DNA of 35,446 nucleotides from assembly GCA_020052935.1 (NCBI GenBank), contig JAGVOD010000027.1, positions 1 through 35,446 of the forward strand, written 5' to 3'. The first letter of the stretch is position 1. Each line of letters starts with the position of its first letter. Shown here in pieces: positions 3,276 through 31,320 of this stretch. Made by a program: the position numbers and the translations under genes. The DNA is from an archaeon. GTDB taxonomy: Archaea > Nanobdellota > Nanobdellia > Woesearchaeales > UBA11576. The notes under the pieces were generated by a model. That model saw only the letters and a program-made list of their open reading frames with translations, ran no database searches and was not told where the DNA came from.

Positions 3276-4199
3276 ATGAAGCTCAAGATACTAAACCCGC
3301 AGAACAACGAGAAAGGCAGCATAGACATGCCACAAGTGTTCAGCGAGCAGATAAGGCCCGACATAATCAAACGAGCTGTCGAAGCGCTCCAGGCAAACGC
3401 AAGACAGTCATACGGATCAGACCCGCTGGCAGGAAAGAAGTCCAGCGCAAAGCTCTCGAGGAGAAGACGCGACTACAGGGGAAGCTACGGGCACGGAATA
3501 TCAAGAGTGCCGAGAAAGATAATGTCACATTCAGGGACAAGATTCAACTGGGTAGGAGCATTCGCGCCAGGAACTGTCGGCGGAAGGAAGGCACACCCGC
3601 CCAAAGCGACCAAGTCATTCGAAAAGAAGATCAACAATCAGGAAAGAAGGAAGGCAATAAGGTCTGCGCTGGCAGCCACGATGGAGAAGAAGCTCGTCGA
3701 GGCACGAGGCCACATAGCGCCAGAGAAATACCCGTTCATAATCACCAACGACTTCGAGACGATGAAGAAGACACGCGAGGTCATAGACGCCCTGGTCCAG
3801 CTCGGACTGGCGAAAGAGCTCGAGCGAGCGGCAGAGAAGACATACCGCACAGGAAAATCAAGGCTCAGGGGAAGGAAATACAGGAAAAGGAAAGGCCCGC
3901 TGTTCGTCGTGGCAAAGGAATGCCCGCTCATAAACGCTGCGCAGAACATACCTGGCGTCGATGTCGTGATGGCAAACGCACTCAACGCAGAGCTGCTCGC
4001 GCCAGGAACCGTGCCAGGAAGACTGACGCTATTCACAGAAGCAGCGATAGAAAGGATCGCCAAAGAGAACATGTTCACAGGCATGCAGATGACTGAGAAG
4101 AAAGACAAGACTGAGAAGACAGCGAAGACCGAAAAGCCTGCCAAGCAAGACAAGCCCAAGGCAGCAAAGCCTAAGGCAGTGAAGAAGGCAGACAGCTGA
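3276..4199 (+). CDS. rpl4: Large-subunit ribosomal protein L4 (uL4)
   Basis: L4 binds 23S rRNA and lines the peptide exit tunnel. The 307-residue protein has the archaeal L4 core, with the extended tunnel loop rich in Arg, Gly and Ser (residues ~60-110; SRRRRDYRGSYGHG and GRKAHPP). From about residue 275 it carries a repetitive tail of Lys, Ala, Glu and Pro (TEKTAKTEKPAK-like units) absent from the compact fold. It lies 2 bases from L3 and 2 bases from L23. Confidence 0.97.
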   Translation: MKLKILNPQNNEKGSIDMPQVFSEQIRPDIIKRAVEALQANARQSYGSDPLAGKKSSAKLSRRRRDYRGSYGHGISRVPRKIMSHSGTRFNWVGAFAPGTVGGRKAHPPKATKSFEKKINNQERRKAIRSALAATMEKKLVEARGHIAPEKYPFIITNDFETMKKTREVIDALVQLGLAKELERAAEKTYRTGKSRLRGRKYRKRKGPLFVVAKECPLINAAQNIPGVDVVMANALNAELLAPGTVPGRLTLFTEAAIERIAKENMFTGMQMTEKKDKTEKTAKTEKPAKQDKPKAAKPKAVKKADS

Positions 4200-17394: not shown

Positions 17395-17616
17395 GCAAAT
17401 TCACAGCCGTCGCCGCCAATCAGCCCGCTACAACGGCGAATTTAGTCATAGAAATAATAGGATTTTCTCAGTTTAGCTTCGCAAAAGATAGTTAGGCGGG
17501 CGTGGCGGCGACGAGAGCTGAGTGAGCATTTAAAATGCCGCAGCATTTTTAATGTGCTCAGAAACCAAAGGTTTCTGACACAGCAGCGAACGAGGCGAAG
17601 TAGGCTGTGAATTTGC
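17395..17616. repeat. Palindromic repeat, core-B type, inverted orientation
   Basis: The element is bounded by a perfect 14-bp inverted repeat, GCAAATTCACAGCC (17395-17408) and its complement (17603-17616). On the - strand, 17501-17422 aligns base by base with core B at 29463-29542: GCCCGCCTA, TTTTGCGAAG, CTATTATTTC, GACTAAATTCGCC and GCGGGCT. A further arm (17522-17580) holds two hairpins, one around GCATTTAAAATGC and one AGAAACC/GGTTTCT (17560-17566/17570-17576). The flanks 17339-17394 and 17617-17634 show no gene. Confidence 0.8.
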
Positions 17617-17634
17617 GCCTTGAAGCAGGCATGT

Positions 17635-18693: not shown

Positions 18694-18875
18694 AAGCGGT
18701 GCCACGCCATGCTACGCTTGTTTATTAGCTTCCTGAAACGTGACCTCCCCGTAAGTCTCTCAAACCCTTGGTTTGTGAGAAGTTACGAACGCCGGGCGTT
18801 CGAAACTGGACTTCCCCCCGTCACGTGCTATTTTCTAACCGAAAAACGCTTCGCAAAATGGCGGTGGCACCGCTT
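18694..18875. repeat. Palindromic repeat, type A
   Basis: The outer arms are AAGCGGTGCCAC-GCC (18694-18708) and its near complement (18860-18875), with a single-base bulge. Nested inside are ACGTGAC/GTCACGT (18738-18744/18820-18826), AAGTC/GACTT (18753-18757/18808-18812) and the 8-bp stem CGAACGCC/GGCGTTCG near 18786-18802. The CTCCCCGTAAG core is a variant of the family core. The right end CGCTTCGCAAAATGGCGGTGGC nearly matches the 252-385 copy. The left arm begins immediately after the stop codon of the radical SAM gene. Confidence 0.85.
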
Positions 18876-18938: not shown

Positions 18939-19859
18939 ATGGCATTCACACTCAACCAGACGATATACCTTGTACTGCTGCTATTCACCTTCTACGGATG
19001 CCTAAAGTCACTCATGGTGTACAAGGAGAAAAGGGAGTTCAAGTACCTCGTCATACTCGCGTTCTTCCTAATCATATCACCACAGCTATGGATGAAGGCA
19101 TACGGCGTAAAGATGCAGGAATTCCTCGTCACATTCCAGTTCGTGGTGCTGCTCGTACCTCTGGCGCTGTTCCTGTTCTACGACTACTGGGAACGAAAAA
19201 GGCTAGAGGAGCAGAAAGACAAGATAAAGATAAAGACATTCTTCGAAAGCTACGTAAACCCCAAGATAATCAACGAGCTCCTGCAGAAGGAACGCGTCGA
19301 ATTCAAGGGAAAGAGACAGGACGTAACCGTGTTCTTCATGGACATCCGCGGATTCACGAAACTGTCAGAGAAGCTGCCTGCAGAAGAGGTAATCCGCATA
19401 CTCAACAAGTACTTCGACATCGCGACATCCATACTGTTCAAGCATGACGGCACGGTAGACAAATTCGTCGGCGACGCAGTCATGGCATTGTTCAACGCGC
19501 CCACGGCGGTAAAGGACCACGAGCTTAAGGCAGTCAATGCAGCATTGGAGATACAGCGAGCGCTGAAAGAATGGGGCAGAGTGGAAGCAGGCATAGGCAT
19601 CAATACCGGCGAGGCAATCATAGGCAACATCGGCAGCAAGCATAAAGTAGACTATACTGCGATAGGAAACACAGTCAACATAGCATCAAGGCTCGAAGGC
19701 CAGACCACTGCGGGTGATATAGTCATAAGCAAAGACGTGTATGACCAAGTCAAGCACAGGTTCCCAACAAAACACAAGGAGACAGTCACGCTAAAAGGCA
19801 AGGAAAAACCCCTCGAGATATATAGGTACAAGACAAAGACCGAGAGCTACAGGACATAA
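18939..19859 (+). CDS. Membrane-bound class III adenylate cyclase
   Basis: This 306-residue protein is predicted to make cyclic AMP from ATP at the inner face of the membrane. Three membrane segments (residues ~6-26, 35-53, 62-81) precede a short linker with FFESYVNPKIINELL, the usual element before bacterial class III cyclase domains. The catalytic domain (127-298) has both metal-binding aspartates (Asp135 in FMDIRGF, Asp179 in FVGDAVMA). It also has the adenine-selecting Lys175 and Asp238, and Asn247 and Arg251 of VNIASR. All six residues point to adenylate rather than guanylate cyclase. The Yip1-like gene starts one base after its stop. Confidence 0.88.
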   Translation: MAFTLNQTIYLVLLLFTFYGCLKSLMVYKEKREFKYLVILAFFLIISPQLWMKAYGVKMQEFLVTFQFVVLLVPLALFLFYDYWERKRLEEQKDKIKIKTFFESYVNPKIINELLQKERVEFKGKRQDVTVFFMDIRGFTKLSEKLPAEEVIRILNKYFDIATSILFKHDGTVDKFVGDAVMALFNAPTAVKDHELKAVNAALEIQRALKEWGRVEAGIGINTGEAIIGNIGSKHKVDYTAIGNTVNIASRLEGQTTAGDIVISKDVYDQVKHRFPTKHKETVTLKGKEKPLEIYRYKTKTESYRT

Positions 19860-20576: not shown

Positions 20577-20738
20577 GCTCTGTAGAAAAGTTCACCTTCG
20601 GTGGGTGCCGCCAGGCTTCGCGCCACAATCCTGTTTCTGTAGACCTGACATCCCCGTAGGGGGCTTCCCCCTGTCAGGTGCAATAGTGCAGCAGATATGC
20701 ACTTCGCAAAAAGGCGGCACCTCACTTTTCTACAGAGC
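20577..20738. repeat. Palindromic repeat, type A with extra outer stem
   Basis: A 15-bp outer inverted repeat (20577-20591/20724-20738, CTCTGTAGAAAAGT and complement) encloses the family stem GGTGCCGCC/GGCGGCACC (20604-20612/20713-20721). Inside, ACCTGACA/TGTCAGGT (20643-20650/20672-20679) carries the core CCCCGTAGGGGGC plus C run, nearly identical to 298-334. A small GTGC/GCAC hairpin follows near 20684-20702. It lies between the Yip1-like gene and the next promoter. Confidence 0.85.
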
Positions 20739-25209: not shown

Positions 25210-26547
25210 TCACTTCTGCTGCGCCTTCTTCCTGCGCTTCTCCCAGGACCGATAGCCTAGCCAGACGGCCAGCATTATGACAATGACGACGGCGATTATC
25301 ATCGCGCTGGTGCTCTGAGCTTCTCCTCTCTCCTCAGGGGTGCGTATCTGGTACTTCATCATGACATCCTTGTCATAATCGATGTTGTTCGCATCCTTGA
25401 AGGTCACGTGCAACGGGAATTCGAGCACGCTCTCCTTCTTCGCGTTGCCGTTGTTGTTCAGGTATATCGAGAACTCCACGCTCTCAAAGTCATCAGAGTC
25501 TATGTTGCCGATGTATTCCTCTTTTGAAGATATTATCTTGTATTCGTCAGTCTCATCAAGGACGACGTCAAGGAACTTTATGTCTGTCACGCCCTTGTTG
25601 ACGAACTTGAACGAGACCTTTCCTGTCTTCTTGCCTGCGACGAGGTCCGAGCTGTCGATCACCGCATAGACATCAGGCTTCGAGCCGACGACGATGCCCA
25701 CCAGGTCGTCCTTCTCGAACTCGGTATCGAGCTCATCCTTGTATGTCATGATGACCGGAAGCTTGTAGACCCTAGATAATGCCGACGGATAGACCATCAG
25801 GTCATAATCCACCAAGACAGATTCGCCTGGCTTCAGAGAAGCTATCCTTTTCTCGCTTGAAGATGACGTCGGGACAAATGGCAATGCGTCATATCGCAAT
25901 GCCGCTTCGGTCCCTGTCGTAGGCTGAGGCATCGTCTCCAGCATCAGGTCCAGCTTGACGTTGATGTCCTTCATCAAAGAGTCTGCAAGATTAGTGATCT
26001 TGAGCGTAAGGCGGCCGCTGTTGCCAGGGGTTATCCTCTCTGGCTCCAGAGATACTGATTCGATAACCACAGCCGCGTCGACGCTCTGCACCCGGACATC
26101 AAAATTGCCGAGCTTTGTCCAGTCATCAACACCAGTGAAGCGGTACATGAGCGTGAGCTCATTTATTCCCTCAGAGGCGTCCTCGTCGATACGGACCTTG
26201 TAATACAGCACTACACCCTCCTCGCCTTTCTGGTGGCCCTGGATCGTGCCGAGCTGCCTGACTCCATCGTCATTGCCGAGCATCTGGAACGGATAATCCG
26301 AAACCAGCATGAACTCTACATCCTGAAGTGGAGTAGAGCCCATGTTTATCACCATCCAACGCAATTCAAGGTACTCCCCGGGCTTCACAGGATCGGGGTC
26401 CTGGCTTATCATCGAGACGCGTATGCTCGGGCCAGAGACGTATGTATCGACGTCTGCGATGGCTGAAGCAACCAACAAAAGCGTGAAAAGCAACAATGCT
26501 GCGCTGACAAAAACATATCTCTGACTGTTTGTGTTTGTTTTTTTCAT
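25210..26547 (-). CDS. Secreted, membrane-anchored NEW3/CARDB-like protein of the exporter operon
   Basis: This 445-residue protein has a signal peptide (~9-32) and two or three beta-sandwich repeats of the NEW3/CARDB kind: RMSISQDPDPVKPGEYLELRWMVINMGS-type and ESVSLEPERITPGNSGRLTLKITN-type blocks. It ends with one membrane segment (~410-430) and a basic tail. Similar COG1361-type proteins often sit beside MacB-like transporters in archaea. It could act as the extracellular partner that replaces the bacterial MacA adaptor (inference). Its start overlaps the ABC ATPase stop by four bases (ATGA). Confidence 0.75.
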   Translation of the reverse strand: MKKTNTNSQRYVFVSAALLLFTLLLVASAIADVDTYVSGPSIRVSMISQDPDPVKPGEYLELRWMVINMGSTPLQDVEFMLVSDYPFQMLGNDDGVRQLGTIQGHQKGEEGVVLYYKVRIDEDASEGINELTLMYRFTGVDDWTKLGNFDVRVQSVDAAVVIESVSLEPERITPGNSGRLTLKITNLADSLMKDINVKLDLMLETMPQPTTGTEAALRYDALPFVPTSSSSEKRIASLKPGESVLVDYDLMVYPSALSRVYKLPVIMTYKDELDTEFEKDDLVGIVVGSKPDVYAVIDSSDLVAGKKTGKVSFKFVNKGVTDIKFLDVVLDETDEYKIISSKEEYIGNIDSDDFESVEFSIYLNNNGNAKKESVLEFPLHVTFKDANNIDYDKDVMMKYQIRTPEERGEAQSTSAMIIAVVIVIMLAVWLGYRSWEKRRKKAQQK

Positions 26548-28868
26548 TTTTTAGTACCTCTGCGGTTTTTTTGAACATCTTTCTTTGAGTCTACCCTGCA
26601 GGTAGCTGCATGAGCATGAGAATGCTTCTTCCCCTTTTTTGTACTGGCTATGGTCCCGTCCCTCAGGAACTCTATGCGCTCTGCGTGCTCGGCGACGTCA
26701 GCGTCGTGCGTCACCATCACTATGGTCTTGCACTTCTTGTTGTGGAGCTGCTTCAGGAACTCCATGACAATACCCCCTGTCTTCGAGTCGAGGTTGCCTG
26801 TGGGTTCGTCAGCAAGTATGACATCAGGGTCATTGGCAAGTGCACGCGCTATCGCGACACGCTGTTGCTGGCCGCCTGAAAGCTCTGTCGGCTTGTGATC
26901 CATCCTGTCTCCGAGCTCGACCAGATCAAGCAGCTCGGTCGCGCGCTGCTTCCTCTCGCTGCCGGGAATCCCCTGGAATGTCATCGGGAGCATGACATTC
27001 TCCAAAGCTGTAAGGTTCGGGATGAGATTGAACTGCTGGAATATGAATCCGATCTTCCTGCCGCGTATCTGCGCAAGGTCAGACTCTGAAAGATGAGAGA
27101 TGTCCTTGCCGTCGAGGTATATGCTGCCTTTTGTCGGGATGTCGAGGCAGCCGATCATGTTCATGGCCGTAGAATTGTGGATGATAAAATTATTCGCAAT
27201 AAAGTTATCCGCACCAGGAACAGTAATATCATATACACGAATGCGTTTATTCAATCTGCGGACGGATCTTATCCTGTCCCAGAAGATATCATCATCAACC
27301 AGATTTTTGAGCTTATCGGCAGATAACCCATGTTTTTCAAGCAAGGCGATGATTCCCTTAAGCTTCGCATTAGAGGCGTGGATCTTCTCCTTTTCATAAG
27401 GCCATAGAAGCTTATGGACCTTTCTTGGAAGAACGACCGAAGAGCCCTTTTTGATATCACGTATGATCTTCCCACAAGGGATGACATCCACGTTCGTGTC
27501 CCCTTTACCGAGCAAATGCCTGTTCAACCTTTCATCTTTATGTTTGCAGTTAAACCCTACGAATCTAGAGTATGATTTTAGGCTCTCAAGCCCGGAAATA
27601 GACAAGGCATAATATTTTCTGATAATCTTTCGCTTAGAGTTGGTTGCGCATTTCAATTTTTCAGAATACCTCGCAACAATGCCAAATCTCAAAAACAGAT
27701 AAATCAACTGCTCAATAAGGATCTTACTGGCAAGGGCGATAGAAATCTCTTTCCTATCTTTTGAGATGTGAGCATCACAATCAAAAAGACCCCTAATAAA
27801 AGAGGATATCTCATCATCGGCGCATTTGAACACAAAATCAGGGAGCTTGATGTGCCTCGCTTTTTTAACTAGTGGAAATCCGAAGATCTCCACAAAAAAA
27901 GATCTTAACACTTTACTGTTACAATCAATCCTTTTAGGAATGAACTCCCTGGTCTCAACCCCGAAAACCTCTTTGTATAAATGCCTGATCCTATCCTTCA
28001 ACCCATCATCTACATTGGTTATCTTGAGCCCATCTTCATCTATGTTCCCGTCTCCACATAAAAATCCGTAAAGCTCTAATAATTCCGGGCCGCTGTACGC
28101 CGGAATCTTGACTTTCTTACCAGAACTTAGTGCAGTAAGTTCCACTTTTCCGTCGTATTCCGCAATACTTTTTCCGCAAAAATCCAGAATCTCCCTGAAC
28201 CTATACAGTGAAACATTATTTTTGTACAACCATGAATCAAGAGTGCTGTATTTCACACCCAATCCCTTGCAAATGGCCCCCCTTGAAACGTGCGAGTCAC
28301 CCATCACTTTCTTGACCAGTCTTGGAGAGTCAAATACAATCAATGACCTGTCTCTGCAGAGCCGGTTCAATGAATCAAGGTACTGCCTCTTCCCACGTAT
28401 CCTTGTGGATCTGGAAGACGCCACAAACGCACCTTCCTCAAGATCCTTTGCAGGAACTTCACATAAACCATTTTCATCCAGTATAAAGAAAGGGTGCTCA
28501 ATAGACGTAATTATCTTTTTTCCACTGCAGGTCTCTACCTCAAGGGCATTTTCAACCTGTCTTTTGTAAAATCCTCTGATCGGGAATGGACGTATCTTGC
28601 GTGTCTTTTTATCCAGCGCCAAGATTTCGACATCTTTCATGTCCTCTATATCCTTGATTTTCATCGGCAAACCGTTGCTCAGAATAAGCTGGCTATCCCC
28701 CGAAATGCATTTGCCAGAGCCTGACGGGCCCATCACTGCGACAAACTCGCCCTTGTTTATCGTGAGGTCTAAGCCGCGCAATGCGGGTACTTCTACAGCA
28801 CCCATAGTGTAAACCTTCCAGACATCAGTCAACCGTATCACTGCAGTCTCTTTAGTCTTGTTTTTCAT
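26544..28868 (-). CDS. MacB/LolD-type ABC ATPase with an intein in the Walker A loop
   Basis: The open frame codes for 774 residues. Residues 1-53 and 566-774 together make a 262-residue ABC ATPase: Walker A GPSGSGK|ST, Q-loop FIFQQFN, signature LSGGQQQR, Walker B DVILADEP and H-loop VTHD. The ATPase drives the two neighbouring permeases. The 512 residues between (54-565) are an intein. The Ser that follows it is both the splicing nucleophile and the magnesium-binding Ser of Walker A. Unspliced protein would therefore lack a P-loop. The Lys-rich C-terminus ends with a His/Ala patch (KKGKKHSHAHAAT). It overlaps the PadR gene and the following gene by four bases each. Confidence 0.93.
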   Translation of the reverse strand: MKNKTKETAVIRLTDVWKVYTMGAVEVPALRGLDLTINKGEFVAVMGPSGSGKCISGDSQLILSNGLPMKIKDIEDMKDVEILALDKKTRKIRPFPIRGFYKRQVENALEVETCSGKKIITSIEHPFFILDENGLCEVPAKDLEEGAFVASSRSTRIRGKRQYLDSLNRLCRDRSLIVFDSPRLVKKVMGDSHVSRGAICKGLGVKYSTLDSWLYKNNVSLYRFREILDFCGKSIAEYDGKVELTALSSGKKVKIPAYSGPELLELYGFLCGDGNIDEDGLKITNVDDGLKDRIRHLYKEVFGVETREFIPKRIDCNSKVLRSFFVEIFGFPLVKKARHIKLPDFVFKCADDEISSFIRGLFDCDAHISKDRKEISIALASKILIEQLIYLFLRFGIVARYSEKLKCATNSKRKIIRKYYALSISGLESLKSYSRFVGFNCKHKDERLNRHLLGKGDTNVDVIPCGKIIRDIKKGSSVVLPRKVHKLLWPYEKEKIHASNAKLKGIIALLEKHGLSADKLKNLVDDDIFWDRIRSVRRLNKRIRVYDITVPGADNFIANNFIIHNSTAMNMIGCLDIPTKGSIYLDGKDISHLSESDLAQIRGRKIGFIFQQFNLIPNLTALENVMLPMTFQGIPGSERKQRATELLDLVELGDRMDHKPTELSGGQQQRVAIARALANDPDVILADEPTGNLDSKTGGIVMEFLKQLHNKKCKTIVMVTHDADVAEHAERIEFLRDGTIASTKKGKKHSHAHAATCRVDSKKDVQKNRRGTKK
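27174..28709 (-). mobile_element. LAGLIDADG intein (512 residues)
   Basis: Splicing signals are visible. Cys1 is in CISGDSQLILSNG, block B is SIEHPFF with the conserved His, and block F is RVYDITVPGADNF. Block G ends IIHN, followed by Ser. The homing endonuclease has LYGFLCGDGNI (frame residues 266-276) and FIRGLFDCDAHI (357-368), both with their acidic residue, so it may still be active. A helix-turn-helix-like stretch (~185-225) precedes it. Two 60-base lines sampled inside (27661, 27901) have 37-38% G+C against 58% in a flanking line (26881), pointing to recent horizontal entry. Confidence 0.93.
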
Positions 28869-29320: not shown

Positions 29321-29338
29321 GGTTACTTTTGCTTTGAG

Positions 29339-29641
29339 AGGCAGTGCCGCGCTAGGCTACGCCCTGATTCGCAAAACCGAGGCCTGTTTCGATGCTTCGC
29401 ATTGTAACCCTTCAGGCCGCTGCGTCCTGAAGTGACTCGCCTCGTCGAGCCTCGTGACGCCAAGCCCGCCTATTCTGTTTTACGAAGTTAGTCTGATAAA
29501 ACCCAATTATTTCGTTGACTAATTTCGCCTATGTGGCGGGCTATAAGGGCGAATCCGCCTACGGCGGAAGGGTCGCGTTCGCTTCGCTCGCGACCGTCAC
29601 CAGCCTCGGTTTTGCTATTGTTATTGGCGGCGCCACTGCCT
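29339..29641. repeat. Large palindromic repeat joining type-A ends and core B
   Basis: The outer arms AGGCAGTG/CACTGCCT (29339-29346/29634-29641) resemble type-A ends. A perfect 12-bp arm, GCAAAACCGAGG/CCTCGGTTTTGC (29371-29382/29604-29615), is shared with 182-193. Core B (29463-29542) is bounded by AGCCCGCC/GGCGGGCT and can form an inner stem, CGAAGTTAGTC/GACTAATTTCG. Two further hairpins follow, near 29555-29567 (CCGCC/GGCGG) and near 29570-29595 (GGTCGCG/CGCGACC). The divergent promoters of the PadR operon and the 29704 gene lie outside it. Confidence 0.85.
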
Positions 29642-29671
29642 GCTTTACAGCTCCTATAATAATGCACAAAT

Positions 29672-31143: not shown

Positions 31144-31164
31144 GGGATTTTCTAATCTAACTGG

Positions 31165-31186
31165 GCAGTGCCGCGCCAGGCTGCGC
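31165..31186. repeat. Solitary type-A repeat left end
   Basis: These 22 bases, beginning GCAGTGCCGCGCCAGGCTGC, match the left arm of the 252-385 copy (258-275) with two differences. They have no matching right arm before the next complete palindrome begins 6 bases later. It looks like a remnant into or beside which another copy inserted. Confidence 0.55.
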
Positions 31187-31192
31187 TAAATT

Positions 31193-31320
31193 AGCAGTGG
31201 CACGCGAGGCTCGGCGTGCATCGGTTTTGTTGATTGGGCTATCTCCCCGTAGGGGGCATCCCCCGATAACGCCCCTGCAGATATTGTAGAAACGCCTCGC
31301 GAATTCGCGGTGCCACTGCT
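31193..31320. repeat. Palindromic repeat, type A, between convergent genes
   Basis: AGCAGTGGCAC (31193-31203) pairs perfectly with 31310-31320. GCGAGGC/GCCTCGC (31204-31210/31294-31300) continues the stem. The core CCCCGTAGGGGGC plus C run sits inside GGGC-TATC/GATA-ACGCCC. The element lies between the ends of the 30355 gene (+) and the 31351 gene (-), where it could also act as a bidirectional terminator. Confidence 0.8.

Follow-up and report, generated by a model that had tools for sequence, protein, structure and literature searches.

A family of branched palindromic elements dispersed in an archaeal genus, probably a non-autonomous mobile DNA

A larger branched hairpin, made up of a terminal stem (P1), a side hairpin (P2) and two further stems (P3 and P4), has core B (29463-29542, + strand) as its tip. 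The whole unit, element B, occurs in about 58 dispersed intergenic copies, about 74-91% identical, in the 1.64 Mb archaeal draft genome (G000) that holds the window, the 35,446-nucleotide stretch of DNA analyzed here. The window is contig 12 of this genome, whose assignment to the archaea is based on ribosomal proteins L32e, S4e and L5e and a primase of archaeal type. We consider element B to be probably a mobile palindromic DNA that is non-coding, non-autonomous and specific to its genus. The near-pure Watson-Crick pairing of its stems, the lack of any strand or context bias among its copies, and the empty state of several of its sites in a congener together favor this reading over an RNA gene. 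No description of the family was found in the literature searched, which took in a minority of subscription papers. If our reading is correct, an abundant mobile element would be added to an archaeal group in which mobile DNA is little described.

Architecture of element B and its copies in the window

The anatomy of element B is based on an alignment of 40 copies and inspection of all flanks, and the structure was taken from covariation because RNAalifold missed the interior mini-hairpin and aligned P3 poorly. From 5' to 3' the element is composed of P1, CCCTACTTCGC, the P2 side hairpin, GCTCTCG, P3, AC, P4, the interior, P4', TAATNA, P3' and P1', and is about 150-200 bp long when inserts are excluded. 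P1 has the ends GCA...TGC and 21 different inner 10-mers among the copies, and its arms showed 94% pairing with their own partners versus 65% with partners taken from other copies. Covariation was strong in P3 (e.g., columns 7/104: CG 20, TA 8, AT 3) and in P4, which is typically GCCCGC/GCGGGC and rarely GGCCGT/ACGGCC or GCGCGT/ACGCGC. Within the interior is a C(GNA)G mini-hairpin with the variants GCGAAGC, ACGAAGT and CCGAAGG, whose pair 33/39 was formed in 100% of cases (GC 25, AT 8, CG 7; no exception). Nearly all copies have GAA as the loop of this mini-hairpin, the others having GGA, GCA or GTA across species, and the closing pair is always C-G. The P1-P4 architecture is present in four congeneric species. 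In the window's species, interior columns 79-82 of alignment A1 (GCCG/GTTG) can pair and covary with columns 102-105 of the P3 3' arm, which would allow the 3' side of the element to fold differently.

The original prediction was that core B is a recognized RNA or DNA hairpin with a constant loop in a variable stem. Its general form was supported: covariation analysis found that P1, P3, P4 and the mini-hairpin change in a compensatory manner, and these compensated stems enclose a constant inner part. As to its nature, the evidence pointed to DNA rather than RNA, based on the near absence of G.U pairs, the unbiased strand and the presence or absence of copies between congeners. The inner stem that had been proposed, CGAAG/CTGA with GACTAA/TTCG, was not general, as only 68% of cells had TAGTC/GACTA paired; CGAAG instead folds back on itself into a very small hairpin. 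Two inner segments, CCAATTATTTC and GACTAA, show sequence conservation but have no covarying partners.

Core B had also been described as shared by three different palindromes, but the window palindromes are copies of one family. The claimed alignments were reproduced, with core B matching the minus strand of 17422-17501 end to end (local score 73; maximum 26 in 2000 shuffles) and 90-144 locally (score 37; shuffle maximum 22). The predicted pairing of the core B arms, AGCCCGCC/GGCGGGCT, was likewise confirmed, the copy folding as DNA with z = -3.9. The 29k copy, on the + strand, lies within a nested palindrome recognized by sequence and DNA fold at 29340-29640, whose outermost arms are GGCAGTGCCGCGC (29340-29352) and GGCGGCGCCACTGCC (29626-29640); the DNA fold of 29336-29648 had z = -6.6. 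Its P1 is formed by the 5' arm GCAAAACCGAGGCC (29371-29384) and the 3' arm GCCTCGGTTTTGC (29603-29615). Downstream of the 5' arm are an inserted double-hairpin unit (TTCGATGC/GCATTG, CTTCAGG/CCTGAAG; 29385-29432), similar to a unit that lies at a different position in copies C26:887 and C28:10531, the P2 side hairpin (GACTCGCCTCGTCGAGCCTC; 29434-29453), whose position is conserved among copies, and the 5' arm of the covarying P3, GTGACGCC (29454-29461). Core B itself contains the P4 arms (3' arm at 29535-29542), the mini-hairpin ACGAAGT (29482-29488) and the conserved unpaired segments CCCAATTATTTC and GACTAATTTCGCC. The second of the two additional units that interrupt this copy, a 45-bp double hairpin at 29551-29595, splits the P3 3' arm into AAGGGC (29545-29550) and GTCACC (29596-29601). 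The related copy C34:33561 lacks this unit and runs through GGCGTCACC unbroken. The unit is present in the sister copy C11:5027, which has the same inserts as the 29k copy and is 88% alike over 257 bp.

The second full copy is on the minus strand at 17395-17616, with P1 arms at 17616-17603 and 17408-17395, P3 arms at 17512-17504 and 17417-17409, P4 arms at 17501-17496 and 17428-17423, and the mini-hairpin GCGAAGC at 17482-17476. It is interrupted by one unit, a double hairpin of 54 bp within its P2 loop (17527-17580), and the fold of the entire copy (17395-17620) had z = -8.3. The third copy is partial (73-172, + strand, within 1-172): its interior and right half (96-144), P3 3' arm (150-158) and P1 3' arm (159-172) are retained, and its left half has been lost or replaced by other sequence. 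Elsewhere in the window are an ABC transporter ATPase gene (26544-28868, minus strand) with an intein containing a LAGLIDADG-like domain (Pfam), and a gene (18939-19859, + strand) for a protein with an adenylate/guanylate cyclase catalytic domain, here in an archaeal genome.

Interruption by double-hairpin units of 45-55 bp was seen in several element B copies, the units being located within P2, within the core or in the stretch that separates P3 from P4. Comparison of C9 with C42 revealed one insertion of the ~54-bp type without visible duplication of flanking bases, between AGTCTGTAA and GAATCC. Families of these units are represented in the window (17527-17580, 29385-29432 and 29551-29595) and elsewhere in G000 (C9, C91, C63, C80 and C34:6494), and their arms differ between units yet stay complementary. 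Another palindrome family, with the outer arms AGCAGTGCCACGCC/GGCGGTGGCACTGCT, is located at 254-390, 18695-18864, 20609-20717 and 31164-31215 of the window. At 254-390, 18.8k and 20.6k it holds a hairpin of the GACATCCCCGTAGGGGG..CCCCCTGTC type (core A), and some element B copies also lie between these outer arms. Yet another hairpin sequence (GGTTACGC..GCGTGCAAAGTGCGGCATTCG..CTCAGCCAC) is found in P2 loops or replacing the 5' half of copies (G000:C82 at about 3600-3760, C75, C76, C34:3793 and C25:11350). A similar stretch at about 5.4 kb of G000:C11 appears to interrupt a tRNA-like gene, which was uncalled by ARAGORN.

Distribution and site occupancy

Searches of the genome confirmed that further copies exist, in a family far larger than three. 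The 80-mer of core B had 23 BLAST matches in its own genome and a 226-bp copy had 43, and a covariance model identified 60 matches at E <= 0.01, two of which were short fragments. With the exception of one ambiguous copy, all were intergenic. The four genomes of the genus have about 58, 17, 17 and 3 copies, and the genome with only 3 is 93% complete. Of 287 genomes of the order, the 283 outside the genus had only one match, a marginal one (L173) without P1 and P2 that we took as chance. An exact-pattern scan of GTDB representatives produced five scattered bacterial matches, a number expected by chance. One search of IMG/VR produced zero matches, and the single match from another scan had no P4 stem and was also taken as chance.

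At several sites where G000 has a copy, the flanking genes are the same in its congener G001 but are separated by only a short intergenic gap (31, 57, 31, 74, 66 and 55 bp versus 216-369 bp in G000). Such presence or absence at orthologous sites is as expected for a miniature inverted-repeat element of the MITE type. No target-site duplication was seen, and neither a duplication nor an exact boundary could be established because identity between the congeners at syntenic loci is only about 70-82%, a divergence at which the ends are not exactly placed. Both species have a copy at five loci (C44/L068, C48/L074, C42/L135, C91/L178 and C62:17652/L084), and as at least this many sites are common to both, not all copies are recent.

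At these five shared loci, P1 (11 base pairs) had 20 two-sided changes and zero one-sided changes. Stepwise compensation would leave some one-sided states. The observed pattern therefore makes a concerted process likely, either whole-stem replacement or arm template switching, concerted correction of arms by replication template switching being a documented mechanism (PMC8794818). Homogenization of the arms by template switching may thus maintain the stems. Concerted change in P1 makes covariation of the long stems weaker as proof of selection, and leaves that of the two-base-pair mini-hairpin unaffected. With stems that diverge while remaining almost perfectly Watson-Crick, and without G.U intermediates, element B provides a natural test case for pairing selection versus template-switch correction.

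Alternative readings and a possible mode of movement

The strong compensatory changes in P1, P3 and P4, the sequence-conserved interior, and the recurrence of stems and interior across four species are consistent with a structured RNA, either an ncRNA family or a cis-regulatory element, that would be transcribed from each copy's + strand and have P1-P4 as its helices. An RNA helix is expected to tolerate G.U, on one strand only. However, the 1030 stem pairs counted were Watson-Crick in 1014 cases, G.T in 6, A.C in 4 and other in 6, so that G.T was as rare as the A.C mispair and the tolerance typical of structured RNA was lacking. In tRNAs of the same genomes 3 of 60 pairs were G.T, although these five tRNAs are too few to weigh heavily. 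The downstream gene was on the same strand for 21 copies and on the opposite strand for 25, and the contexts (tandem 26, divergent 11, convergent 9) were similarly unbiased. In addition, Rfam covariance models had no match in the window or in five further loci, and copy number ranges from 3 to 58 inside one genus. Based on these data, we consider a structured RNA unlikely.

We also considered whether the palindromes are largely mutational, with template switching creating and homogenizing their arms, nothing being mobilized, and spread occurring through occasional duplication or ectopic repair. The exclusively two-sided P1 changes at orthologous loci are what this mechanism (PMC8794818) would produce, but it would leave unexplained why about 58 copies at unrelated sites share an interior that is not palindromic. 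Moreover, the mini-hairpin with its invariant CGAAG covaries and, with two base pairs, is too short for arm templating, and we judge a mutational origin quite unlikely. A cruciform or hairpin site selected for chromosome organization, replication or repair, similar to REP/BIME and retained by a host protein, would fit the conserved unpaired interior, the GNA mini-hairpin and the preserved pairing at the five shared orthologous sites. This appears very unlikely, as just 3 copies are present in a congener whose genome is 93% complete, and there is no strand bias.

If element B is a mobile DNA element, as we favor, it would move, or would have moved, as a folded single strand with its ends closed by P1 and with P2, P3 and P4 forming a branched hairpin. 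A trans-acting enzyme would recognize the site formed by the C(GNA)G mini-hairpin and the conserved unpaired AT-rich segment, and replication template switching after insertion would keep the stem arms complementary. We infer that single strands are the functional form of element B, and the covariation of the GNA mini-hairpin is a rare indication that a DNA may function as a folded single strand. A bolder proposal, which we regard as unlikely, is that element B represents a new class of archaeal mobile DNA: a folded single strand recognized by structure, through the GNA mini-hairpin and an unpaired segment, with self-correcting variable terminal stems, served by a non-Y1 enzyme and acting as a landing ground for hairpin elements.

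Y1 transposases were identified in 0 of the 4 congeneric genomes, whereas control genomes were positive. No other mobilizing enzyme was identified among the families searched, which did not take in DDE transposases or tyrosine recombinases, and no autonomous parent was seen among the partial copies inspected. A TnpB-like domain was found in G001 only. Reverse transcriptases are present in G001 (L155, on C44) and in G000 (L191 and L193, on C96 and C102) and prompted consideration of retro-mobility; a template/variable repeat pair in G001 points to diversity-generating retroelements instead. About 93% of the mismatches in this pair, located beside the reverse transcriptases of G001:C44, are at A, which suggests that the G001 enzymes are part of such a retroelement.

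Comparison with known systems

DNA mini-hairpins that have a GNA loop and two or more G-C pairs are extraordinarily stable, and GCGAAGC melts at 78 C (PMC4686876). Element B has the identical GCGAAGC, GNA-loop variants and the C-G closing pair. The d(GCGAAGC) work was in vitro (PMC4686876), whereas in element B the mini-hairpin would covary within an element that is dispersed through a genome.

REP/BIME with RAYT and the PATE of IS200/IS605 are, like element B, palindromic DNA repeats with many extragenic copies, and their recognition as single-strand hairpins is a model for it (PMC3733652, PMC3119063). Element B was not assigned to either system because their defining transposase, Y1, was sought and not found in its genus. 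Rickettsia palindromic elements are also repeats of about 150 bp with several families per genome, but are often inside genes (PMC10969869), unlike the intergenic copies of element B. Integron attC sites come with an integrase and with R-box arrays between cassettes; element B copies are single and dispersed. The repetitive and double-hairpin elements of fungal and sponge mitochondria are intergenic hairpin units whose frequencies differ between related species (PMC2800124), as do those of element B. However, element B is archaeal-chromosomal and branched around a conserved interior rather than two adjacent hairpins forming a unit, an arrangement seen only in its 45-55 bp inserts, which resemble those double-hairpin elements (PMC2800124).

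Compared with MITEs, element B differs in its branched inner structure, in having no visible target-site duplication, and in that P1, the expected terminal repeat, varies freely between copies where classical terminal inverted repeats are conserved in sequence. A parental transposase with matching ends was not identified in searches that took in Y1 and TnpB. As in MITEs, element B is short, non-coding, intergenic and multicopy, with terminal inverted arms (about 58 copies, P1 arms GCA...TGC) and a copy number that varies between relatives. With many copies, inverted arms and presence or absence between relatives, it falls within the general definition of MITEs and repetitive hairpin elements and behaves like one of them.
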